From positions 5,974,292-6,038,291 of the forward strand of contig OZ005697.1 in NCBI GenBank assembly GCA_963930775.1: 64,000 bases of DNA, written 5' to 3'. Origin of the DNA: Cliona cf. orientalis (lineage: Eukaryota; Porifera; Demospongiae; Clionaida; Clionaidae). Below the pieces are notes generated by a model. That model had not been told where the DNA came from. It was given only the letters and a program-made list of their open reading frames with translations, and searched no databases. Made by a program: the position numbers and the translations under genes. Position 1 is the first letter of the stretch; every line of letters begins with the position of its first letter. Shown here in pieces: positions 36,072-60,139 of this stretch.

Positions 36072-39000
36072 TTAGAGCCTCAATTTCTGTAGAAGCAATT
36101 GAGCAGCATTCATTTCAGCCTCCCACTTTGTTTTCATCAAGTATCCAGTGAGGCGCCCACATGTCTTGGCCACGTATACAGTAGCTCTGTACTTTCCATT
36201 AACCTTTTCAACATGGTAGGAAGGCTTGGGTTTCCCCTGGTCTCTGCAGTACTGCTCTAGCTTCTCTTTTGGGCTCTTTGGTGTTGGGCTTGCATGTGAT
36301 ACCGGGGGTACTACATGTATACTGCGAGTAATACTGACCGGTGAATGAGCATTCCCAAGCAATGATTCATTTACGCTGGGACTCCGAGGCTTGCCACCAA
36401 TTCTGAAGGCTTTCTGTAACACTCTTTGCACTGTAGATATGTGTATTCAGTGCATAACATTGCACACTATGTAAAATGATAATAGCTATAACAATACTAG
36501 AGCTCTCTAGAGCATAAAACCCTCGGCACATTTCATGGCAATAGCTACTGTTTCAGTGTTGCACGGTAAAGGGCAGGGTGAGGCTGCAGTACAGTATGGG
36601 CTGGGACGAGCCTAATGTTATACTTGCACAACAGTGTTATTCAACGTTCAATGACTCACAGCAACGACAACCCTGGTGTGTTTATTGAGTGCCATACTGT
36701 GGTGCCGACATCAAGTCAACTTCCTCACAGTAGCCTCTGATTCTTAAGGACATTAGCTGGCTTCTCTACGGTGGCCCTGGAGGTCACGCGTCACGCCAGT
36801 AGCTATCACGTATCACTCCAGTATCCTCTCCTCCTACCGTCGTCACGTCACCGCCGTCCGTAACGCTGATGTCCGTACCGTTCAGTCTCCGTACCGTCGC
36901 CATTCCAGTCCGTAACGCTGATGTCCGTACCGTTCAGTCTCCGTACCGTCGCCATTCCAGTCCGTAACGCTGATGTCCGTACCGTTCATTCTCCGTACCG
37001 TCGCCATTCCAGTACACATGACAACCAGTCCTAGGGGTGTGGCTATCAAGTGTTCACCGCCACACCCCCCGCCCCCCCCCCCCCCCGAGTATTATAGGGT
37101 GCGATGTGAGCGTAGCTAAGGTCAACAAATAAATTATTTTATGATATTAAAAATCAACGAGTATGTTACCCTTGATTTGTTGCTGTGTTCTTATTGTCAG
37201 TGATAGATACCTCAGTGTGTTAGCTATAGGCTAATTTGTTCTCTCAAGCATTGAAGGGATGATCCAGAAGTTGATAATGAATTTATTAACTGATAGTACC
37301 ATCAGTACCAATGATATAGATGATAGTACGGACGCACCACCGTGTAATCCACACACTCCGTCATCTTGTTACGTTTTTGACCCTATGTCCCAAGAACAGG
37401 TCACCCTGGAAACTTCTATGATGCCACATTTATTAAGTATGGCGAAAAACCGTATGTACTATAATATAATATCTTGACTGTATTATGAGCCATTTACATC
37501 TATGCTGTAAATGATTGAAAGAGCAACAACACACAATATACTCAAGAACGGGGACGAGGCTACACTCTGCTTCTTCAGGCTACGCGCGTATCGTACCCTA
37601 CTGAGCCATGGGGGTGTGGCGGTAAGCGTCGATAACCACACCCGGTCGTATTATTAGCATGTGTACTGGAATGGCGACGGTACGGAGACTGAACGGTACG
37701 GACATCAGCGTTACGGACGAATTCGTTACGGACGGCGGTGACGTGACGACGGGAGGAGAGGATACTGGAGTGATACGTGATAGCCACTGGCGTGACGCGT
37801 GACCTCCAGGGCCACCGTACTTCTCTTGAAGTACTATGATGCATACCATGCATATGGATGTAGACACGGGGGGGGGGGGGGGGGGGGGGGGGGGTGCGCT
37901 TTGGGGGCTCAAGCCCCCCCCCCCCCAGATTTCAGATTCTACATCATATTTATTTGTTGACGTGTATAAATGTTGGCTTTTATCAGTCTAAACACTACCA
38001 AATTGATGAGAATTTCTCCTCGAAGGCCCATTTTATGACATTTTTAATAACATGGCAGAAACTTTTCGTGTGCTTCGCATGCGAAGATTATCAAGCCCCT
38101 CCACATTACTAATTGCATGTGTCTACATCCATGCATGATGATACATGTACAAGCTTAACTAGCCAGAAGGTCAAAGGGTACCACAAAAATGCACATGGCA
38201 TGGCAGCAAACGTCTATGCTTCGAGTTGAAAAGAATCCACTAACGTCAAAAGCTTGCCAGTGCATTATCATGCAAACTTGCAAACTATCCAGCCTTAGTC
38301 TGCATAGGTGAAGGAGCTGGCAACTACATGTAGCTACAACATAATAATAATACTAGTCCAGCCTATGCATATATATAGCAGCCTGAATCAGTGATGGTCT
38401 TGTGCACTAGACATGAATAACCACAAGAATGCACATGCACATGTGCTTATGATTGCATACAGTTATGCAGCATGACCATAATATTATGCACATGTGCGTA
38501 TAATAATATTATTATGCTTGATTAGCAGTTTTGTTACACACAAAGAATGTACAAGCCAAGAAGCGTTATTGATTGTCTACCATGATCAATGATGAGTCAG
38601 TCAAGTTATAGGAACTATTGCTACACCTACATACTATAAAGAAGCCATCGCTGTCTTTTTTGTTCATTGTGAGCTGAAGCAAAGAAGGCCGTGATGGTCG
38701 GCAAACGTCGCCAGAACTTCTGAACAAAGCGTTTTCAATGAAATCCACACAATGCATACGTTGAAATCAGCATAGAAAGCCTAATGATGTAGCAGCTAGC
38801 TTATAATAGACAGACAGACACACACACAATATATATGACTACCGTAACCCTCCAACACATGCACGGAGGGTTAATTATGCTTCACTTACCAGTTGATCCC
38901 GTGGAAGCACTTCTTGGCCTTTGCAGTGATACGGATGGATCTAATGGAAACAACAGTTAATAACTGCATAGAATGCAGTGCTCATGTGAAAATTAAACTC

Positions 39001-42000
39001 ATGCATATCAGTGGTCACCCAGAGTGGGGAGGGAGCTCATTTTCGAATGTGCATATTGCGCCTCAAATACCCTTGCAGTAGACAGCCTTATTTTTCTCCA
39101 CCTACATGTATACTAGCTATAGCCCTATCTATCTATGGAGTCTACCATTCATATTTTGAGAGCTAGTTGAAACAGTGGCAAGTTTTACCAAAAAGTTAAG
39201 TTGTCTGCAGAGAGAATCTTGGTGGAGCTACATTGAAATTGTTAATTCAATTGGCGATCATTATCCAATTCTCCAGTATAATGATTATTATGGCATATCC
39301 GGGCCATCCCTACTTCTAGAGTCTACTGGCTCCCTCTCTCTATCGCACTCTCTATGATACATGAGGGCATGGAGATGTGTTGAGTTATCAGCAGTGATCG
39401 CTAAAATGTCATGGATACACGTCCAGTTGCTATGAACTCACAGCATTGCCTGTGCGAGTGGAGAGAAAGCCTGCACTACAAGGCTCAGGATCGGTCAGAA
39501 TGTTGGGCTGTGTCATCGTGCACAAAGAAGGGTGGCCTTAATGTATTAGACCATAGAACTAGCTAGCTAGAGAGCCGCATTGTTGAATGATCAGTGCGAA
39601 GCGCCGCACGTTTCGAGAGGCATGCGGGCGCTAGCCACCGAGTGAAGCAAGAGGTGAGGTCTGTTATTTGTCATACGGCCTGTCAATAGATTCGATGCGT
39701 TCGAAGAGAGCGAGAACGTCGCCATTGCAGTGAGTTTGAGTGGCAGCTGTTGACATGCAGAGAGATGTATGGCCTATGCAATACTAGGTTCAAAGTTCGT
39801 TCCACTTCCATCTGTGCATGTGCACTGTACTAATAAGCACTCTTGCACAGGTAGGATATATTGTGTGAGCATGTACTGCTAGTAGATGATCATGCACACT
39901 AGCCACATTATTCTATAATTGTGACATTATATTCGTCTATCACAAAATTAATGATATTTGAAGGTTAACAATGAAAATTAATCTGATTTTGGCTTATTAT
40001 ACTTTTCAAATCATCAAAATAATTTTTGCTGATAATTATGTGCATTGTGCCTTGTTCTAAACTTAGTAACGTGACTACTGTGGGAAATTTTAATCTTTCA
40101 CGCGGGCGCTTCGCACTTCTTCCCATTCCCTCCTCCTCTTCATTATTATTATGTGCTCCTGGTAATACTTAATATGCATCATGTGTGTGGATCCTTGAAT
40201 ACGCAGTACTGTTCAGTGCATTTGCACCGAGTATTCTTGCAGCATGATAATGATCAGCTGGGCTAGGCTAGCCAGCATGACATGAACTGGAGAACCACAG
40301 GAATGTGCATAGCTACTGTATAGCCAGAAATATTGGCGGGAATTAAATTTGGCGGTTGAGCCCCAAATTGCTATTGCAAGAATATTAGCGGATTTAAATT
40401 TGGTGGTTCGGTACGGGATCGCCATACATAAAATATGCGAGTAGGAAATTTTGGTGAATTTTAATTTGGTGGTTGTGATATAGACCGCCAAATTTAATTC
40501 CCCACCACATTTTCTGGCTATACGGTAGTTCAACAGTATGATACCACTCCCAACATGTATCATGGCCTACATGTAGCTGAACAAAGAGGTGTACTGATCT
40601 CATTATCATGACTCAGCTCAAGCCTAGTCAAAGATAGTCCCTCTAAATTCAGACAGTCATCGGTTTTAGCATAATTATACGGTGCCATTTGTAGTTGTGC
40701 AACTATCAGTATATTTTCTGTCACTGATCATCATGATAAACAAATAGTGCACTGTAAACTTTTCCAGACAATTAAGAGAAGAGGTCATGCAAACCAGCTC
40801 TTGCTTGCTTATTTAACCCTACAAAAACTCAGCAAGGGGCCAGTGTGATGCCAGTGTTTAGTAGTTGTGCCTAGTAGCTGTGTTCAGTTCTACCAGTCTC
40901 AGTGTATATCGGAAGATGAAGCTATTTGTCTAGCTTATTCTGTGGTGACATGGAGCCAGCTGATTTGAAAGTGATGATGGCTGGTCATTCAAAACACTAG
41001 AACCTAGTGTGCAGAATCACTAATGCTATATATATGGGCTCTTAATCTGCAGCTATGTCCCGGATCACTAGTTGGCTATCTACTAGGATCCTCTACATGC
41101 ATATTATGGTCACACTAATCTTAAGGCCAACATGCAGATTTGCAGACTAGCTGCATGAATACCATGGCAAATTAGGCACACATGGCAGGCCCCTGAGTCC
41201 CTACCATGTACACAAGTGCCTATGCTTATAGTCTGGTATATTAAAAACTGTCTTGGTAGCTATTTTGCTTATAATTTTTGTGGATAGGTAGCTGTTTTGG
41301 AGCTTTCTCTGATCTTTCAACAATCCATGACTTTAAAAAAAATTAGGCCTATAATTTCTACTCTGTGGCTGTAATCATTACTACTGTAAATCGCGAATAT
41401 TTCGTGTCTGAAATATTTCATGCAATAAATTTTCACGTTAAATAATTTTCGGATAAACGACCCTGTACCTCATTATCGTTAATATTGCACATATGTATTT
41501 TCGTGTGTTTAATTTTCGCACAAGCCAGGCTGTCCGAAAATATTTTTACATCGAAATATTCGCGAATTGCGGTACTTCAATGTAGCTACTGCCTAAAATT
41601 CAATTCTGTGAAACTAATCAGCAAACTAGCTGTAGATAGGCTAACAAAACCACAAAGAATGTGAGGTATAAATTATAGTTGCTAGGCAAAACCACCATAA
41701 ATGCACAGTATAAATTGTAGTTGCTAAGCAACACCACAAAGCATGCACTGTATAAGTAGAGGTTAATTAGTACTTACTCTCGCCTGGTTCTAGAGCTACC
41801 AGCACTATAAGTGTTTATTGCACTGGTATGGCTTCAGTGGTAGAATTAAACTGCTTCATCATATAAATCATTAATTTTATGCAATCTATTACATAGTACT
41901 TTCCAAATAATGTGACTAATAATGGGAGTAGCATAAATGACCACAACATGTTATGGTTGGCAAGCTTAGAAAACTGCCATTATTATTGTAAATTATGGAA

Positions 42001-44418
42001 GGTTTTGAACATTAACCAATAACTTGTGGTTACAGTGTTCATGGCACATTACGCTATTCTTGGTATAGTATAGTACCCACTACGATTATCTCTAGGTGTA
42101 GTTAGATTTATTTGTTGAGGCTATCACAAGATATTGATATAATTTACTTTATTTTTTGATAATTTCCACTCCTTCTCTTCATGTGCTATTACAAAATTTT
42201 AGTCAAAATGTTTCTACCTGCTTTGCATTAGCAGGAATGAGAATCTGCCAGTGTTACTTTATTTTTTGATATTACCACCGCATAATATATTATGTGACTT
42301 ATACACTCCTTCTCTTCATGTGCTCCTGGTTAAATTAATCTCTGTTCAGGGGTACTACACACTTGTATTAGCTTTAAATTGCTATTGTGTGTTCATTGCA
42401 TAAACAGTATTATCTGACACATTCCAGTTTGCCACAGTGTGGAGAAAGGAGGCCACATAGGCATTTGGATAATCTGCCTTAGCCTTAGCCTCGAGCCTGC
42501 GTTCGAGCATACGTTGGCCTAATCCCTCAGTTGTACAGTTATGGTTAATGAAATCCGAGTCTCAATTTGATGCCCAACATCCTGAGGAGATGTACCTCAC
42601 CGATTCTCCAAAGGAAATAATCAGCTCTGCCTCTAGCCATGTGCTTACAAGCAGCTCCTATAGTACAATCCGAAGTCTCTGGCCTGTAAGGGAATTTATT
42701 GTTGGAAATGGCCGTCATTGAATGGAGCATCAGTCCAAAATCGAGTCCAAATCTCAGTCCACAGTCCAGTCCATGAGTCCAGTCCGGAGTCCAGAGTCCA
42801 GGTTTTACACTAACCCTGCTAGCTATCACCATGAACGCTGCACAATGCATAAACCAAGTGCGTAGCTACCATTGAGGCAACCGAGGCAGCTGCCTCGGTC
42901 ATCAATTCAGCCAGCTATATACTTAAATACACAACAACACTCACCAAGCCACGTGCATGCCATGACAAGTTTGTTTGCTGACTAAGCACTCGAACTTTCA
43001 CTGTATAGCTCCGTCTCTAAGAGAGCAAGACGGATGTCTCTCTGAGATGATGTAAGTAACGTCGACAAAACGGCTTTGCGCACCGTTCTAGACTCGAGAA
43101 GACTTTCTAGGTTGTTACGATCGCGGTAGACACCCGAAAATGGGCGTGGTTTGTCCACCAAGGGGGCGTGGCTAAAAATTCACGCGCAACCTTTATTACC
43201 TGCCTCGGTATAAAAAAATTTCTGGCTACGCCCTTGTAAACCCAGATACAAGGTGCTATACCTCATATGATTGTAGCCTAGCTGAAGACCTCCCCTTCAG
43301 AGTAAGAGCCAGCTTCCTATGTTACTCACAACAGGAGTTTCATATCGGGGAAATAAGGGGTCGAAGGTTACGCTACCCAAGTACAGAGTAGCTACACTGT
43401 AGCTATGAATAAAAGTCTGTTGTAATTTATTATATTTTACCCTTTCCCTCTCTCCCTCCTCCTTCAATAACTAGTGAGTATAATCTTAAGGCTTACCATT
43501 TATGACGGCAATCTTTGGGTCTACAAGTACATAACCCATTTCCTCAGCATCCTCATCATCATCTGTACACGTAATATTACAATCATTGTTGGTACATTAT
43601 AATATACTTTATGATTCACCTGAGTCAATCTCTGACAGGAAATTTTTGGTGGCTTCTTGAGCTTCTCTCAACAGATTGACGGGTTCATTCAGACGAGAAA
43701 TGAATTCTGGCTGTTGTACAAACGCTGCATATGAAGGCTTCTGGTACTTGTTCACAAGTTCCCTGTTCACTTCTGAAAGGACATCATGGACAGAAGCATC
43801 TTTCCTGCATAGCTTATCGGCCAGAGCACCGATCCAAATCCCACCCTTAGCCCGCTCTTCATAAGATAAATGATCTGGTATGGTAGAGTATGCCACCAGG
43901 AAATTCCCATGCTTGGGTATGGTCAGGGTTTCAATTTCTCTCCCACTCCTTGGTACGATCACCCCAGGATTAGCTTCTTTCCCTCGACAGGCATCAATGA
44001 AAAACAGCTTTGCAAGGTTTCCATTTAGTGGAGCCCTCTCAGGAAAAAATGCACTCAAAATGTCCGAAACCTTCACAGTCTGGCCCTCACCAGTGTATAG
44101 CATGTGATCGGCACACCCATGACCAGAAAACACAAACACAATTCGTCTGTATGAGGGTGGGAATTTCTTGTAATTTGCCACACTGTAGAGTAATTGCATG
44201 GTGGGACCTTTGGGGAGATTATGCTCATGAAGTGTGGAGAAGTTCAATACCTGGAAGGAATGCTTCATCCTCTCCCCATCAGCCTTAGTTCCAGATAACT
44301 TCTCCAGCCCAGTTGAACAGGTCTCATAGCTATTTGTGATGATCACAGCTAGCCCATTTGCTGTTTGGTTGTCTTCAATCACTCGTGTCACGCTCGTCTG
44401 CCTTTGAACACACGCCAT
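36072..44418 (-). CDS. Caspase-dsRBD fusion protein (4 exons)
   Basis: Exons: 43620-44418, 43497-43562, 38890-38940, 36072-36430; all junctions GT-AG in phase 1, giving about 426 aa. Residues 20-250 are a C14 caspase-like peptidase: AVIITNSYE, FSGHG with catalytic His100, FFIDACRG with Cys144, and a small-subunit segment FLVAYSTIPDH...GGIWIGALADKL. Exon 2 is acidic (DDDEDAEEMG), exon 3 Ser/Pro-rich (QRPRSASTGST). The last exon, after a Ser/Pro stretch, ends in a dsRBD: LEQYCRDQGKPKPSYHV, KYRATVYV, then WEAEMNAAQLLLQKL. The caspase would cleave after Asp; the dsRBD would bind RNA duplexes, so activation by dsRNA is a reasonable inference. There is no N-terminal CARD or death domain, and the first ATG is in the caspase exon (AGCTATGGCG context). 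The pentapeptide has Asp where animal caspases usually have Gln. Intron 2 (4.6 kb) and intron 3 (2.5 kb) hold transposons; extra exons there cannot be excluded. Confidence 0.8.
36856..37011. repeat. Three 52-bp tandem units in the left TIR arm
   Basis: Units start at 36856, 36908 and 36960 with GTCCGTAACGCTGATGTCCG, almost identical (CAGTCTCC versus CATTCTCC in the third). The right arm of the same element has a single unit, so expansion happened in one arm only. Confidence 0.85.
37259..37477 (+). CDS. Unidentified ORF inside the 1053-bp element
   Basis: A 72-codon plus-strand ORF starting MIQKLIMNLLTDSTIS, with an acidic Asp/Ser/Thr-rich middle (NDIDDSTDAPP) and FDPMSQEQVTLE near the end. 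A GTATGT donor-like site lies at about 37452, so it may be an exon. No family recognised. It may be the remnant of an element-encoded protein or a captured exon. Confidence 0.25.
   Translation: MIQKLIMNLLTDSTISTNDIDDSTDAPPCNPHTPSSCYVFDPMSQEQVTLETSMMPHLLSMAKNRMYYNIIS
37856..38130. mobile_element. Inverted-repeat unit with GGATGTAGACAC ends
   Basis: GGATGTAGACAC at 37856-37867 is inverted as GTGTCTACATCC at 38119-38130. A 27-nt poly(G) run follows the left end and a poly(C) run lies at about 37914-37926. Nested in the family B repeat. Confidence 0.5.
39590..39850 (+). repeat. Interspersed repeat family C, copy 2
   Basis: Matches 2447-2680 in block order (TTTCGAGAGGC, GTGAGGTCTGTTATTTGTCATA, GAGAACGTCGCCATT, ACTAGGTTCAAAGTTC). 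Non-coding; in the second intron of the caspase-dsRBD gene. Confidence 0.5.
40314..40526. mobile_element. MITE with TACTGTATAGCCAGAAA termini
   Basis: The left end is inverted as TTTTCTGGCTATACGGTA. Internal AATTTGGTGGTT/AAATTTGGCGGTT repeats occur. In an intron of the caspase-dsRBD gene. Confidence 0.65.
41392..41574. mobile_element. MITE with TACTGTAAATCGCGAATATT termini, copy 1
   Basis: The left end is inverted as AATATTCGCGAATTGCGGTA. A near-identical sister copy is at 48314-48503 (shared ATAATTTTCGGA, GACCCTGTACC, GCACAAGCCA). In an intron of the caspase-dsRBD gene. Confidence 0.7.
42735..42802. repeat. Imperfect GAGTCCA/CAGTCCA short tandem repeat
   Basis: About nine copies of AGTCC with 2-6-base spacers. 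Non-coding, intronic. Confidence 0.6.
42856..43236. mobile_element. MITE with AAGTGCGTAGCTACC termini
   Basis: The left end AAGTGCGTAGCTACCATTG and the adjacent block AACCGAGGCAGCTGCCTCGG are inverted at the right (GCCTCGGTATAAAA, TTCTGGCTACGCCCTTG). It is 381 bp and lies about 260 bp from exon 2 of the caspase-dsRBD gene. Confidence 0.6.
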
Positions 44419-52840: not shown

Positions 52841-54742
52841 CTACTGTGCACAAGTTGGGTCGTTGGGGCTATGAATTTGGTACGTATTCCGTCCAACAGT
52901 TCTAGCAAAAACTTCCTCTACAATTGCTTGGTCATAGGGTGGGTCGTCTCTTTCCCTGTATTGATATCGTTTGGCTGCCACTGAGAATAGGATAAGTCCA
53001 ATTATTGCTAGTACAGAGACAATAAAAAAGTAGCCAAAGTCACAATTAAGTGCTCTGGGGTTTTTTCTAAACGTTCCATCTTCCCAAGATTGAGGTATGG
53101 AGAAGGGAAGGAGAAGGATAGCACTAGAGAGCTGAAAGAGTCCTCTGATAGCAAAGAACACTCCAACCAGGAGACCTTTCATAGAGTGAGGGCTTTGGGC
53201 CGATATGAATTCAAAGGCAGTGGTTGTGATCAACATTGGACTAAATCCAATGAGAAGATTTGGTAGGATATGGAATCCCCAGTGTAAGCGTAGTGCCTTA
53301 ACATATTTACTGGTCACATTAATCTTGAACATACAATAGCTGGATGATCCATTTATATAATATGAAGGAATACCTGGGTCATTGACGTTCAATAGGAGAT
53401 GACCTAGCAAATCAGTTCCAAACATAGTGAGTACACCAAGTAAAAGCAAAGTTCCTCCCACAAACAAACGCTTGAAAATCTTTGGAATACACCGACGAAG
53501 GAAAGAAAAAATTATCCAAATATACACAGGGAATGCGATCACTGATAGCACCTGACCCAGACTCCCACTCTCTAAAACAAGCCATCTGGTGGTACAATGA
53601 CTCTTAAATTCTGGTCCATACCCAGTGTGCAATGTAAACGAAGGGAAAATAAAATAGGATACAGGGACTTCTAGTAAAAATATAGGCGCTAAGGCCATTA
53701 AGATGACAAGAATTCTTAGAAAGGATTTTACGTCTTCCACTTGTTCTGTAGTGAAGGGTCCACCATACCTTTCCTTAGCGAAATCTATCCTGGTTGGAAT
53801 TTCATTGCCATAATAAGTAAAAGCACTCCGTCTGAGTGCGTATTTGTGTTTCCTGGCAAAATGAAGCACTTTAAAGACAGTTTTGTATGGGTTGACTTGA
53901 CCTGGTTCGGAATAAAACCAGTGGTTCTTCCGACAACTGAATACAAGCAGTGAGAAGAGCACCACAAAAAACACCGGAGGTAATGAAAAAATGATGTAGA
54001 GAAAATTATTACTACTTTGAGCAGTGCAGGCATATGCTGCAAATATCAGATGTATAACTGGTGTGGTAATGCTACCAATCCAAATTGCCCAGTGCACAAA
54101 CAAACCCAAGTACTCACTTGGAGCTTCATGAAGCTGGTCAAGTCCAAGCTGGATGAAATTAGCCTGGAATCCTGATAATCCAATTACGAACAAAACAAAT
54201 GCGATAATCCCAATCAGTGCCAATAGATATTTTCCAATTTCATGCCAGTGGTCAAGAATTTCCCTCTGGTGGTCGATAGAAGCCATTGCTAGGGTACTAC
54301 CGACAGTAAAGAAGCCCATGGAGCAAACGAGAATACACAAACTACCTATGACTGTCTTGTATCTTCCACAGCATACATCAGCCATGAAGCCACTTAGTGG
54401 ATAGATAAGAAGTACCAGAGCAAGACAAGTGTACGGGATGAGAACATTGATGAAAATGTTAAGGTGATGTTTGTGTCCATGAATTTTGAGTGTCTTGCCA
54501 GCAACTCCAAGAGCTACAGATGAGTCCATGGCAAATGTATAGGTTGATCCAACAATGGCTGACCACACCAGGATGAGAGCAGCAGCCTTTGATGGAGGGC
54601 AAAGGTGTCTAGGGAAGGCACACGCATGACCAAGTCTCTTTCGATAGGATAACTGTGGCAGTGGTGAGCCAAGCAGAGGCTGTGCTTCTGGTGTACTCAC
54701 AGGCTCAATCATAGGACTACCAGTTGAACTCTTGGACTCCAT
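52841..54742 (-). CDS. POT/SLC15-type proton-coupled peptide/histidine transporter-like
   Basis: Single-exon, 633 aa, about 12 hydrophobic segments. POT-family marks: GFMADVCCGRYKTV (118-131, the classic G..AD...GRYKTI signature), RIDFAKERYGGPFTTEQVED (318-337, as in SLC15A3/A4 relatives), and FISAQSPHSMKGLLVGVFF late in the protein. Expected to move small peptides or histidine with protons across a membrane. The N-terminal tail has an acidic dileucine (E19-A-Q-P-L-L24), the type of signal that sends SLC15A4-like proteins to endolysosomes. The start is the first ATG, with A at -3 and G at +4. A dead duplicate lies 3.5 kb upstream at 58284-60925. Substrate cannot be read from sequence. Confidence 0.85.
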   Translation of the reverse strand: MESKSSTGSPMIEPVSTPEAQPLLGSPLPQLSYRKRLGHACAFPRHLCPPSKAAALILVWSAIVGSTYTFAMDSSVALGVAGKTLKIHGHKHHLNIFINVLIPYTCLALVLLIYPLSGFMADVCCGRYKTVIGSLCILVCSMGFFTVGSTLAMASIDHQREILDHWHEIGKYLLALIGIIAFVLFVIGLSGFQANFIQLGLDQLHEAPSEYLGLFVHWAIWIGSITTPVIHLIFAAYACTAQSSNNFLYIIFSLPPVFFVVLFSLLVFSCRKNHWFYSEPGQVNPYKTVFKVLHFARKHKYALRRSAFTYYGNEIPTRIDFAKERYGGPFTTEQVEDVKSFLRILVILMALAPIFLLEVPVSYFIFPSFTLHTGYGPEFKSHCTTRWLVLESGSLGQVLSVIAFPVYIWIIFSFLRRCIPKIFKRLFVGGTLLLLGVLTMFGTDLLGHLLLNVNDPGIPSYYINGSSSYCMFKINVTSKYVKALRLHWGFHILPNLLIGFSPMLITTTAFEFISAQSPHSMKGLLVGVFFAIRGLFQLSSAILLLPFSIPQSWEDGTFRKNPRALNCDFGYFFIVSVLAIIGLILFSVAAKRYQYRERDDPPYDQAIVEEVFARTVGRNTYQIHSPNDPTCAQ

Positions 54743-57046
54743 TTTATAGTAACTATTGATAGCTAGCTACATATAGGTATCTAGCTAGCTAGTTATGAGA
54801 ACTGGTGTGTACTCTTGATAGATTCAAAGCTGACAATTTAATGCATAGGCACTAGTACTGTCACACTTGACTCAATGTACCTATAGAGGAAACAGGTTAT
54901 GAAAACTTATACCGTATGTAGTAAAAGTTGACCACTTCCTTATAGTGAAACCACAAATGTTTACATTAGTGGAATGTTTACCGTAGTTACCTTGCTTCAT
55001 GTATGTAATGTCCACTAGCATAATATTATTTAAGATTTATAAGAACATCCATAGTATGAATGTGATACATACAGTATAAGCTAGAATGTATACGTATCCA
55101 TCCCTTGCATTACCAAGCTAACACTCAATGCAAACTCAAGCACTTGGGCAAGGATCTAAGTTGCTATGTTTCATCCATAGAAATTAATTAATTGCAACCT
55201 CACCATGATATCTAAGGGAGCAGACCTCATTATTGTGTCATCTTAGAATAAACATTACCCAGAAGCATGCAGCATTAATTGAAGTGCCATGAGGGCTAGC
55301 TTGCCATTGCACATCATGATAGTATATTAAGGATGTTCAATCCAATTATTCTGATCAGGGTAATACTGTACTTCACACTGAACTAAAAGCAAGATTTCCT
55401 TTATGCCATGCTTACCAAAACATGAGCTTTCCGACACATATTTGGCAGAGGAGAGAGCAGAGTTCTTGTAAAATAAACGAAATGTGTAGAAAACTTTGCC
55501 CTATCCTATACATTTCCTACAATGTCATGCATGAAATCCGAGTAACTGTTTTTGTCTAGTGTCATGCAGGTAGCTATACGTATAAGGTTTTAACTGACAT
55601 GATAGATGGTGACCACACAGATGCATACAGCTAATAATCTATTCCATATGCCGGCATACTCAATAATATCGGGCACACAATTATCAAGGTACAGGTAGCC
55701 TAAAGGTTCTAGTATCCATGTGTGATAAATGGTTGGCCGGAGTCAGGCATACTTAGATTGTTATAGTACATGGTTGCATAATTATATTCTGTATTATAAT
55801 ATCGTGAGAGCTAGGTTTGTAACATAAGACACTCTTGGGACTGACCTAGCTGGCATACTAACTTATTAAACAGCCACGCAGAGGTTAATATTATTATAGT
55901 GCATGCATGGATGCATTAAAAGGATGTTTGTCTTGACTACAATGCTGTTATGGTTTTTATGAAAAGAAACAAGGCATTGTATACATAAACTCTCAACCTG
56001 AGCAGTGTTTCCATTTCATGGCTACAGCAGCTACGTACAATCATGTAGCTACTGGCATCTAGAGTTGATCCCCCCCTGCCCCCCCCCCCCCCCCCCCCCG
56101 AGAGCAGCCACCATTCCTAACAATTGAGTTTGTCTATCTTTCCCAAAGATTTCAATAATAATAATGGTCCCTTTTCTCAGCATGCAGGTCACGACAATGC
56201 CTGACTTATCCACTTCTACACAATTAATTGATGTAGTTTTAGTGAGTATGCTAGCTATACTATAGCTATAGATACAAACAACCTACATACTGTACACTGT
56301 CAGGTGGTTGTTGCTCTGGCCACACAGCTCTCAGTGTGGTCAAGTAGCTAGCTATGATAGAATTAGACGTTGTGTGCATTTTGACAAGGCTGGCCCTGAG
56401 GAAGTTATAATGTGTTTTTGTGGGCTTGAAGGTTCTCTTTTCGCTGTGGAGCTATAGGTATCTAAATTAAGCTCTGCAGTGCAGAAATGTAAATATTGTT
56501 CACAGCTTCCATACGGTTGTGGCTAGTCATGAATACTTGGCTGAGGATTGCTATCGTTCAGTGATACTGGTTTATTAAACATTCTGCATGGGTAATACCA
56601 TCTTAGACTGCATGATAAACACTGTAAAATGCATGTGCAGGTGCACTATCAGAGAGGTGCATGTCCTGTTGCTTTGTTGTAAACGATGTATAGTACATAG
56701 GAAATTATCTATTATTATTAGCTATTAGCTATAAGCTTACGTATGGACTATAGGTAGATATAGCGATCGGTATTAACAAATGAACCTTTCAATTTGTGGC
56801 TGAAGCCACTAAACATACAAAAGCTCTCATTTTTGCCTGTGCTTTGGGCCACGGTAGTTGGTGTGCTTGATAGGCAGTGCCAGTAAAACCAAGACGTTTC
56901 TACGGGTGGAGCAATTTCTCTCCATTGCACCTCATTATAGAGCCTCTAAAATTAATGTGCATTTTAAATGAAAATCTATCACTCGATCCAGTAGCTAGTC
57001 CAATGGGAGCCTGAGGGAAAGAGAGCCAGGCAGGCCACCACCTCTA

Positions 57047-57078
<32 letters not shown>

Positions 57079-57467
57079 GTTGGGGGTCAGAGGTTGAGTT
57101 TTGGGTAAACTTGTTATTAGGGTTAGTTAGCATATAGCTATGGCATGGTTACTTTTCAGGGCTAACTTAGTTTCTAGGGTTTAAGTAGCTATGGCAGGGT
57201 TAGTAGCTAGTCTCCAGCGTTAGTAGCTACGTGGAGTTGCTATTCCATATTGAGTCTGGCTGGGGAAATGTTACAACTGATTTAATCGGTTCTAGTCATA
57301 TAGGCAACTATCATATTTGCTGGCTAAATGTAACCTCTACTGCACCTTTTCATGTCTTAGTTTAGAGCCTCAAGATTTTTTGAAGCATTCAGTCCACTAA
57401 TTGATTGTAGGTGAGTAAGTTACTAAGACGTTTTTGACAATGATCTACATGTAAACTTTAACTTCAG
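54743..57467. other. Spacer upstream of the transporter; no gene seen
   Basis: AT-rich DNA with scattered G/C homopolymers (poly(C) at about 56076-56099, poly(G) at 57048-57077). No recognisable transposon ends. The transporter promoter should lie in its first few hundred bases. Confidence 0.5.
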
Positions 57468-57545
57468 ATACTTGCGCGTCAGAAGCAAGAGCTGGCAAAG
57501 GGAAACAAGCCTGTGAAGGGCTCCAAGTACTCCATCCACAGCTAA
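57468..57545 (+). other. Possible terminal exon on the plus strand
   Basis: After a good acceptor (TTTAACTTCAG) the sequence reads ILARQKQELAKGNKPVKGSK then YSIHS and a stop at 57545. The composition is coding-like. A possible upstream exon (57364-57410, ending at GTGAGTAAG) joins in a different frame, so the gene model is not resolved and may be a fragment. Confidence 0.2.
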
Positions 57546-57849
57546 GGCTGAAATCTTACATTCAGTGGCAAGCTCTAGTGAACCCTTACCTATGTGCTTG
57601 AATTTTCAAAGTGCATGTTTCTGCATTGGTTGATGCATGCAGAAGCATGTTTTCAAGGGAATAGCTATATATTACACTTGGTTATTATATTATTATAATA
57701 TAGCCTCGAGAGCCTAGTCACGGTGAGGCTATACGTATACCTTTGTCACCCCCCACTCTTAATTATTCAATGATCATTGCTTTTAATTTCCTCCCCCTTG
57801 ACAAATTAAAATGCTGAATGAAATTTAATCCTGATTGAAACACAATAAA

Positions 57850-58223
57850 ACTAGAGCTCTATAGAGCACATACCCCGCGCGCTCTGTAGCCACTGTAGTA
57901 CATTGTCTGAGGCATACATATGTAGCTGTTTCATGACGTGACGACCCTTTCCAACACCGTGCTTGAGCATGCGCAGTTGCATCTGCATACTATTATGCTA
58001 AAAGAGTGGGTGTGGTCGATAAACCACAGGCATGCCAAACAGAAAATGCACGATTTGTAGCACTAGTAAGCGTTTTTGAGAAATTTGAAGCGCGTATAAG
58101 CCAGTTTTTCACCGATATCTACCGATTGGTTGTGCTTACAGCACGCACAGACGCCTAGAACTCGAGATCTGGCGATTTTCGTGCCGACAACAGACGGACA
58201 AACCGATTGCGCGCGGGGTAATT
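57850..58223 (+). repeat. Interspersed repeat family A, uninterrupted reference copy
   Basis: Begins ACTAGAGCTCTATAGAGCAC, passes through TTTCATGACGTGACGACCC and AAAGAGTGGGTGTGGTCGAT, and ends GCGCGCGGGGTAATTAT. It supplies the empty-site comparison for the insertion at 91-1236. It lies just downstream of the transporter pseudogene. Confidence 0.7.
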
Positions 58224-58374
58224 ATCACAAGGGAATCAATAACTGAATCAGTATAATATATATTATCACTAGCTAATAATAGTTTATGACTCGCTGCATG
58301 ATCCTGCAAACACCCTTTCCACATGCATGCAGTTGTATGGTGGGTCATCCCTCTCCCTATACTTGTAATGCTTA

Positions 58375-58630
58375 TGCACCTATCAATGTATTGCCCCACC
58401 TACCACCCCACTGGCAAAAGGTGGGGATTTGATCGTATTTGACCAATAAACATGCCCCGGATCAGGGGGATTTGATCAATATTTATGGATAGCAGGGGGA
58501 AATATACAGTCCTAATGGGGGGATTTGATCCAAGCATTCGCTCCAGGAGAGAGGCAATTGATTTCACATAGGTCAAATCCCCCACCCTTGCCCGTGGGGT
58601 GGTACCTGGGGCAATACATTGATAGGTGCA
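58375..58630. mobile_element. Harbinger-like MITE, copy 3, inserted in the transporter pseudogene
   Basis: 256 bp from TGCACCTATCAATGTATTGC to the inverse ending GATAGGTGCA, with TTA at 58372-58374 and 58631-58633. On the coding strand the gene reads ...ATTGTTGCTAA, element, TAAGCATTACAAG; removing the element and one TAA restores the codons Val-Ala-Lys-His-Tyr-Lys, aligned with Val-Ala-Ala-Lys-Arg-Tyr in the intact paralogue. Confidence 0.85.
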
Positions 58631-60139
58631 TTAGCAACAATAGTGAAGGCAATCAGACTCAGTAATCCCACAAGAAAGACAAAAATAAGGTAGCCAGAGT
58701 CACAGTTGATTACTGATTGCTGATGTCTCCAGAAAACATCAAGGGAGAAGAAAGGGAACAAGATAATTGAGCTGATGAACTGAAACAGACCTCTTGTTGC
58801 AAAGAAGAGCCCAACAAGGAAGCCTTTCATAGAGTGAGGACTTTGAGCTGAGATAAACTCGAGTGTAGAGGACATGATTAGCGATGGAGCAATTCCCAGC
58901 AATATATTTGGCAGAAACAGCACCGCCCAATGCATTCCAAGAGCCATTGTAGAAGTTCTCTGGATTGTTGAAAGAAACATGCAAGCAAGGCCTTCGTGGT
59001 GTCTGTAGTAGTCACTGACATGTCCAATAACATCGATTAGTAACATGCTTCCTGCACCCAATAGAAAAATGAAAATACCTATCCACAGCCGAATAAGCGT
59101 GCGTGGAATGCAATTTCTGAGCAGTGAATAAATAATCCAGATGTACATGTATATGGGGAAGAGAACTACCCGGCACAGTCAAACTTTCATTGTTCCTGTG
59201 TCAAAAATGGCCCATGTAAGGGTGCAGTTGTGAAAGTAAACTTCTTTATTGTTGGTTGTAAAATGCTGAGCAAATGTCGAAAACACTGCAACTGATGGAA
59301 CTTTTATCACAAACACTGGCCCAAGAGACAGAAATATTGTCAGTATCCTCAAGAATGTCTTGACATCCTCCACTTGCTCAGTTGTAAACGGTCCTCCATA
59401 TCTCTCCTTGGCAAAGTCAATTCTAGATGGCACTTCATCATCTGTGTAGGTAAAAGCACTACGTCGAAGTGGATGTTTATGCTTCCTGGCAAAATTGAGG
59501 ACCTTAAAAATAACTTTGTACGAATTGCGTTTTGCCTTGCCCTTATTACAGAACCAGTGGCATTTGCAATAGGCAATGATCCCCATGAACAATAGTATGA
59601 CCAAACAAAAGGATATGACTAAAGGCAAACAGATTACGACTCTCTTAGCATGAGATTCATGTTCACAGGTATACCATGTGTAGAGGATGTCAACTAGTGC
59701 AGCTCCTACCTCAGTTACCCACTCCATCCAGTGCACAAATAATCCACTATACTCATTTGGAAACTCAAACAACTGATCTAGCCCAAGCTGAGTGATATTA
59801 GCCTGGTATCCAGCAAGACCACTGACACTCAAAACATATCCAATCGCTCCAAATACACCAAACACAACTGCATGTGTTTTATCAATTAGAACTAGCTGAT
59901 GCGTAAAGAATTTTACCAGGTACAAAATGGAATCAAGTGATGTGCTTATAAATCCAATTAAAAGAATGGCAACACTTGCAATAATTGTCCAATGTGCACA
60001 TCAGCCAAAAATCCTGCCAAAGGATAAAAGAGAAACACAACTGCAAAGCCAAGATAAAGAAAAAAATGCTCTCTCGTTCAGCCAGATGGTATCACCAAAT
60101 TGAATGTGCAGTTTATCACTCAATGAACCCTTGACCATC

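Follow-up and report, generated by a model that had tools for sequence, protein, structure and literature searches.

The window, that is, the whole stretch of 64,000 nucleotides of Cliona cf. orientalis that was analysed, carries on its minus strand four exons whose splicing gives a coding sequence of 1275 nucleotides, encoding 424 amino acids and a stop codon, with no inner stops. Exon 1 (43620..44418, 799 nt) holds the start codon and the whole C14 protease domain, corresponding to residues 1-266 plus one base. Exon 2 (43497..43562, 66 nt, phase 1) holds the acidic start of a linker, which runs through a short Ser/Pro exon 3 (38890..38940, 51 nt, phase 1) into exon 4 (36072..36430, 359 nt), where the Ser/Pro linker is followed by a double-stranded-RNA-binding domain (dsRBD) and the stop codon. 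The three introns are all GT-AG and every junction is in phase 1. In the spliced protein, Pfam places a Peptidase_C14 domain (PF00656) at residues 22-243 (43690..44355, minus strand; E 2.2e-29, 103.3 bits against a cut-off of 21.4) and a dsrm domain (PF00035) at residues 359-422 (36081..36272, minus strand; E 7.6e-6, 26.9 bits against a cut-off of 23), separated by a linker of 92 residues (267-358) that contains 14 Ser and 10 Pro. Nothing but C14 and dsrm exceeded the Pfam cut-offs within the 424 amino acids of the model: no kinase, helicase, death or Ig domain was found, nor any CARD or DED. A sequence-only reading of this DNA had proposed a four-exon minus-strand gene with GT-AG introns in phase 1, a Ser/Pro-rich linker and a dsRBD at about residues 355-426. 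Our analysis agrees with the linker and very probably with the gene, as the exons join in frame and the layout recurs in two paralogues (C7a and C7c), and profile searches with Peptidase_C14 and dsrm recover both domains; the dsRBD is also there, but its proposed range overruns the end of the protein.

The exons were chosen to keep the frame, and therefore in-frame splicing alone is weak evidence of one gene. Introns 2 and 3 measure 4.6 kb and 2.5 kb, and the length of intron 3 is partly explained by a mobile-element-like stretch of about 1.05 kb (36767..37819) that sits inside it and is bounded on both sides by inverted repeats of 75 nt (95% complementary). This element also contains internal 52-nt tandem units. 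Exon 3 is the weakest part of the gene model, and the frame survives without it. If intron 1 were retained, an in-frame stop (43609..43611, minus strand) would end a possible caspase-only product in GES. About 20 residues separate the start methionine from the protease domain, as in C7a and C7c; the reading frame is open 5' of the start at 44418, up to 44478, and a further 5' exon is possible.

The window also contains, on the minus strand, four carnitine/choline acyltransferase-type ORFs (4801-28601), two of which map to one and the same portion of the profile, as well as POT-family (PTR2) transporter sequence (52841-60000), where the ORF at 52841-54766 passes the cut-off and two others (58573-60000) fall below it. 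No immune link was seen among these neighbour genes.

Paralogues of the gene in the same genome

The genome surveyed (217 Mb in 149 contigs) yielded 47 C14 matches and 15 dsrm matches, including that of the window. Two paralogues on contig C7 are compact versions of the same arrangement, with the caspase domain followed by short linker exons and by a C-terminal exon that encodes a divergent domain resembling a dsRBD. C7a has four exons of 898/108/81/230 bases separated by introns of 239/90/165 bases, and C7c has four exons of 817/105/108/about 220 bases (the last measured to one base short of the stop codon) separated by introns of 129/78/230 bases, all in phase 1, as compared with exons of 799/66/51/359 bases in the window gene. 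Because C7a and C7c share the four-exon phase-1 layout, the fusion very likely represents a single gene belonging to a small family, and we hold it to be highly probable, judging from the gene models, that the protease exon and the dsRBD exon of the window belong to a single gene with this architecture.

The relationship of the C7-type domain to dsRBDs is borderline at the sequence level. It was neither listed by Pfam dsrm, even at E 10, nor found by a leave-out profile, and the lysine pair at the place of the KKxAK motif is missing in the C7 paralogues. When aligned with hhalign to a dsRBD profile, it obtained a probability of 30% over 40 of 71 columns with a score of 21.7, which beat all 200 column shuffles (best shuffle 16.5); against a profile without the window and C17 sequences, the probability was 19% and the score 20.3. 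The local dsRBD profile contains C7a, making its C7 matches circular, and it is the leave-out profile and the hhalign comparisons that count. A third copy, C7b, is broken, with a stop in the dsRBD-type exon and a protease frame that ends early.

Another paralogue, C17, is far more extended. Its caspase exon has a phase-1 donor, and the same strand carries two phase-1 exons at distances of about 20 and 24 kb downstream; the first is dsRBD-like by eye with no Pfam match, and the second matches dsrm clearly (E 2.9e-8). A near-canonical TKSAAE motif is kept in this paralogue. These exons likely belong together with the C17 caspase. At C1:232437 (L054/L060), we observed a C7-type dsRBD-like exon preceded by a linker-like exon, with no C14 match nearby, which is likely a duplicated fragment.

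For the C7-type C-terminal exon, dN/dS estimates (NG86) were 0.27 between C7a and C7c and 0.22 between C7a and the C1 fragment, at high dS (1.3-1.5), and 0.58 for the young pair C7c-C1. The caspase exons gave 0.28 for C7b-C7c and 0.64 for the two C2 copies. Several of the dS values are high or at saturation, and the frames compared for the dsRBD-type exon start a few codons within the intron. These values, which concern paralogues and not the window gene, suggest that the C7 architecture was kept by selection for some time.

The protease domain and its substrate pocket

The catalytic residues that the sequence-only reading had named, His100 in FSGHG (44119..44121) and Cys144 in DACRG (43987..43989, both on the minus strand), are both present in the spliced protein and align with those of the family. 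Among the matches listed, the best in the PDB are caspase-3/7 (E 2.3e-16 with the single sequence and 1.6e-31 with a family profile), and the best 60 of 187 and the best 60 of 201 matches are all of caspase-3/7 type. A single-sequence structure model of the protease domain was set aside (mean pLDDT 40.8).

The Asp-pocket residues R64, Q161 and R207 of caspase-3, which we take to occupy the same places as Arg87, Gln184 and Arg233 of caspase-7, are all three replaced in the window protein, two of them by acids. In the phmmer alignment to caspase-3 and in the family alignment, their places are taken by L41 (44296..44298), D142 (43993..43995) and E187 (43858..43860; coordinates worked out from exon 1), all encoded on the minus strand. 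According to the part of the MALT1 literature that describes these pockets (PMC4357240), Arg87, Gln184 and Arg233 form the basic pocket for Asp in caspase-7, and in MALT1 (C14B), which cuts after Arg, positions similar to these are held by Asp365, Asp462 and Glu500. The window protein is like MALT1 in having Asp at the place of Gln184 and Glu at that of Arg233, thus matching it in two of three places and the caspases in none; Leu41 differs from Asp365 of MALT1.

The inter-subunit linker of the window protein contains no Asp, one Lys and two Arg among the 24 residues counted, as compared with five Asp in the corresponding segment of caspase-3. The Asp-free linker is not a family trait, since the other four dsRBD-linked copies (C7a, C7b, C7c and C17) carry one to three Asp each; among the 13 genomic sequences with Gln at the Q161 place, the number is between two and eight in seven, one in five and zero in the last. 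Because the pocket residues are all replaced and the linker lacks Asp, ordinary cleavage after Asp together with self-processing at Asp is unlikely. The caspase effector put forward with the sequence-only reading is, in the usual sense of the term, not supported by these two features. We consider it rather likely that the protease has a P1 preference other than Asp, probably a basic one. We therefore describe it as a C14 protease with caspase kinship and a paracaspase-like pocket, and assign it neither to the caspases proper nor to the paracaspases.

The pocket residues were compared in 24 of the 47 C14 matches of the genome through the family alignment. The Q161 place is occupied by Gln in 13 and by Asp in 11, and the R207 place is acidic in five, with Glu in the window protein, C17, C7b and C7c and Asp in C7a. 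These five are the same five for which a dsRBD-type exon was found; as the sequences are related, this coincidence should be read as a pattern rather than as an independent statistic. Within the clade of the window gene, four further members have Met, Met, a gap and Cys at the R207 place and no dsRBD found nearby, two of them being nested beside the C7 copies, and therefore pocket and dsRBD are not strictly tied. The dsRBD exon search covered 1.5 kb around most caspases and, for three C2 members, about 6-7 kb on the downstream side; given that the window gene needs 7 kb and C17 needs 24 kb, other caspases may have a dsRBD exon beyond these distances. Both Q161 and R207 are kept in seven of the 24 sequences (R64 too in six, and one of these without the catalytic Cys), so that caspases of the ordinary kind are probably encoded at other places in this genome.

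In a tree of 25 sequences with an arbitrary root and long branches, nine of the eleven Asp-type sequences were split from the caspase-3 group with 100/100 support, and the remaining two grouped with caspase-3. These two correspond to an uninterrupted ORF of 531 amino acids (L007:1441-3033, plus strand; contig C2 near 14317860), in which a Peptidase_C14 domain of the DACRG type (residues 21-244, E 4e-46) is combined with an Apolipoprotein L domain (residues 300-520, E 3.5e-14), and to C2:14314902, a close relative of its protease part. Other variants of the C14 family were also observed. Five very similar tandem caspases (C11:2528238-2620843) have an R-Q-Q instead of an R-Q-R Asp pocket, and C2:8374408 and C9:274158 are pseudo-protease-like, with the catalytic Cys replaced by Ser (DASRG) and Asp (QADRG), respectively. 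Scans with short conserved patterns recovered nine candidate stretches in genome contigs, of which one was a relative (a Saprospiraceae MAG, 24% over residues 20-145), and 47 candidates in viral contigs, with no relative among them; these counts speak weakly against the idea that this protease type came recently from bacteria or viruses, which is unsupported.

The dsRBD and its RNA-contact features

The leave-out profile, built from the dsRBDs of other genes of the same genome, detected exon 4 of the window gene with an E-value of 9.6e-8 among 8378 translated frames. The best AlphaFold2 model of exon 4 alone, from the single sequence, shows a helix, three strands and a helix, with block pLDDT of 78-91 over the domain; the five models ranged in mean pLDDT from 70.4 to 44.5, three of them being poor (44-51). 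In a Foldseek search of the PDB with the exon 4 model, two matches reached E-values up to 0.001, both of them DHX29 complexes, followed by the first dsRBD of TARBP2 (E 2.0e-3 and 5.0e-3; TM 0.82-0.84 by target length), and the other 48 matches listed, those to TARBP2 among them, were mostly named dsRBDs or belonged to dsRBD-bearing proteins. A chance match to dsRBDs is ruled out by the agreement of the leave-out profile, the model and the fold search.

Canonical dsRBDs contact RNA through a Glu in helix 1, a GPxH loop and a KKxAK motif. The window dsRBD is basic (pI 9.7, charge about +8) and keeps E364 in helix 1 and one Lys of the second-helix motif. The GPxH loop is absent, strands 1 and 2 being joined by NG only, and KTKWEAE stands at the place of KKxAK, with Trp instead of the second Lys. 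The proposal of a dsRNA sensor is thus sustained as regards the dsRBD fold, through the model and Foldseek, but not as regards the RNA contacts, with the loop missing and the lysine motif incomplete. As judged from these residues, binding of dsRNA by this domain is possible, not assured.

Proposed working, alternatives and known systems

The reading that we tentatively prefer, although as a whole chain it falls somewhat short of an even chance, is that of a C14 protease recruited by dsRNA and activated by proximity, with a probable basic specificity. In this working, the dsRBD would gather several copies of the protein on dsRNA or on a dsRNA-protein complex, and the crowding would favour dimerisation of the protease domains and activation by proximity, as in initiator caspases and MALT1. 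The acidic pocket formed by D142 and E187 would then direct cleavage after Arg or Lys, giving the enzyme its own set of substrates, and the first cut could perhaps fall in the protein's own linker. The purpose may be an antiviral or anti-transposon alarm; dsRNA-triggered apoptosis has been described in a sea anemone (in the portion of PMC11251625 that bears on it). Taken by itself, the dependence of the protease on RNA for its activation seems to us nearly an even question. Joining this gating by dsRNA to a change of specificity from Asp to Arg/Lys that arose apart from MALT1, in a sponge family carrying its dsRBD in cis, makes a compound claim that we regard as rather unlikely. If true, a dsRNA-gated protease of basic specificity would connect foreign RNA, within one protein, to cell death or to signalling of the paracaspase type, beside the RIG-I-like receptors of the same animal.

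The dsRBD could also be degenerate and bind protein, in which case it would dimerise the protease or dock on TRBP-, Staufen- or ADAR-like partners and the partner would set the activation. Indeed, dsRBDs can mediate protein contacts, and such a role would fit the lost GPxH loop, the Trp at the second Lys of KKxAK, the C7 paralogues without the lysine pair, and a genome with 15 dsrm matches, the window's included, of which the two checked resemble TARBP2 and ADAR. Nevertheless, the strong basicity of the window domain (pI 9.7), its conserved helix-1 Glu and remaining motif Lys, and the near-canonical TKSAAE motif kept in C17 argue for RNA, and we think a purely protein-binding role somewhat unlikely. 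That the protein is an executioner caspase, translating dsRNA into cleavage after Asp and apoptosis, appears improbable to us; the best 60 solved relatives in each search are all caspase-3/7 entries and the sea anemone offers a precedent (PMC11251625, for the portion cited above), but the three Asp-pocket residues are replaced, two by acids, the self-processing linker has no Asp, and the seven of 24 sequences keeping Q161 and R207 make it probable that other loci of the genome encode ordinary caspases.

The two remaining alternatives concern the integrity of the gene. A caspase-only gene that terminates at the intron 1 stop, next to a separate dsRBD gene, would accord with the introns of 4.6 kb and 2.5 kb, the tiny exon 3 and the in-frame stop met on retention of intron 1. 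The compact C7a and C7c, with their common four-exon phase-1 layout, oppose it, as do the start of exon 4 in phase 1 behind an AG acceptor and the inverted-repeat element filling part of intron 3, so that we give it very little probability. We are equally disinclined to regard the window gene as a copy in decay, or a pseudo-enzyme, that has no protease function: decay has occurred in the family, as in C7b (stop and short frame), C2_8374408 (Cys to Ser) and C9_274158 (Cys to Asp), but the window copy retains both His100 and Cys144, its frame is open and its splice sites are GT-AG.

The preferred reading, a protease recruited by dsRNA, can be set beside several known systems. Animals mostly connect RNA sensing to proteolysis via adaptor chains, and a single sponge chain with both parts would be a compact, testable system for the origin of such links. 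In PKR and the RIG-I-like receptors, the RNA-binding part lies in one chain with, or upstream of, the effector; the kinase or helicase domain of these proteins is absent from the window protein according to Pfam. The genome has ten matches to the RIG-I C-terminal domain on C11, C1, C12 and C13, five of them clustered at C11:6936179-7011786, and therefore RNA sensing in this sponge need not rest on the window gene. MALT1, to which the window protein was likened through published pocket residues, carries a death domain and Ig domains, neither of which Pfam found in the 424 amino acids, and the sequence search places the window protein nearest to caspase-3/7 among the matches listed. Activation by dimerisation and cleavage after Arg, both described for MALT1 (PMC4357240, in its account of that enzyme), are for the window protein only predictions. 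With caspase-3/7 (C14A) it has the His/Cys dyad in common, and it differs in the pocket, the Asp-free linker and the C-terminal dsRBD. The reversal of the pocket charge in paralogues with an RNA-binding-type tail leads to the prediction that the enzyme cuts after Arg/Lys, not after Asp.

The closest architectural precedents come from bivalves. The relevant part of an oyster study describes two caspases, Cg3C-like A and B, whose N-terminal prodomain holds two DSRMs, and its authors considered the DSRM previously unreported for any caspase and suggested a detector of viral pathogens; these caspases fall with the bivalve 3C group, whose Cg3C is said there to cut DXXD-like substrates (PMC7836458). 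The window protein, known from a gene model, resembles these oyster proteins in combining a caspase domain and dsRBD in one chain, and differs from them, as they are described in that part, by its single C-terminal dsRBD and its changed pocket. In Mytilus coruscus, DSRM is named in the abbreviation list and in the legend to a figure that shows how caspase domains are combined in different species, these two places giving neither layout nor function (PMC10967218). Among the matches listed in the open-licence literature, there was no sponge caspase with a dsRBD, and term look-ups for dsRBD or DSRM gave nothing in the main text of PMC4715348, PMC6040629, PMC11797021, PMC8195603 and PMC3196919. 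The pairing of caspase and dsRBD is thus already known as an annotation, and the present case departs from it in the C-terminal position of the dsRBD, in the altered pocket and in belonging to a sponge family. Together with the oyster cases, our results suggest that a caspase and a dsRBD were joined more than once, or very early and then rearranged.

Papain-family loci were also seen in the same genome, and silicatein-like exons among them speak for a siliceous sponge. The first three are ordinary cathepsins, and at two of eight further loci the catalytic Cys is replaced by Ser within CGASYAF, which we take to be the signature of silicateins.
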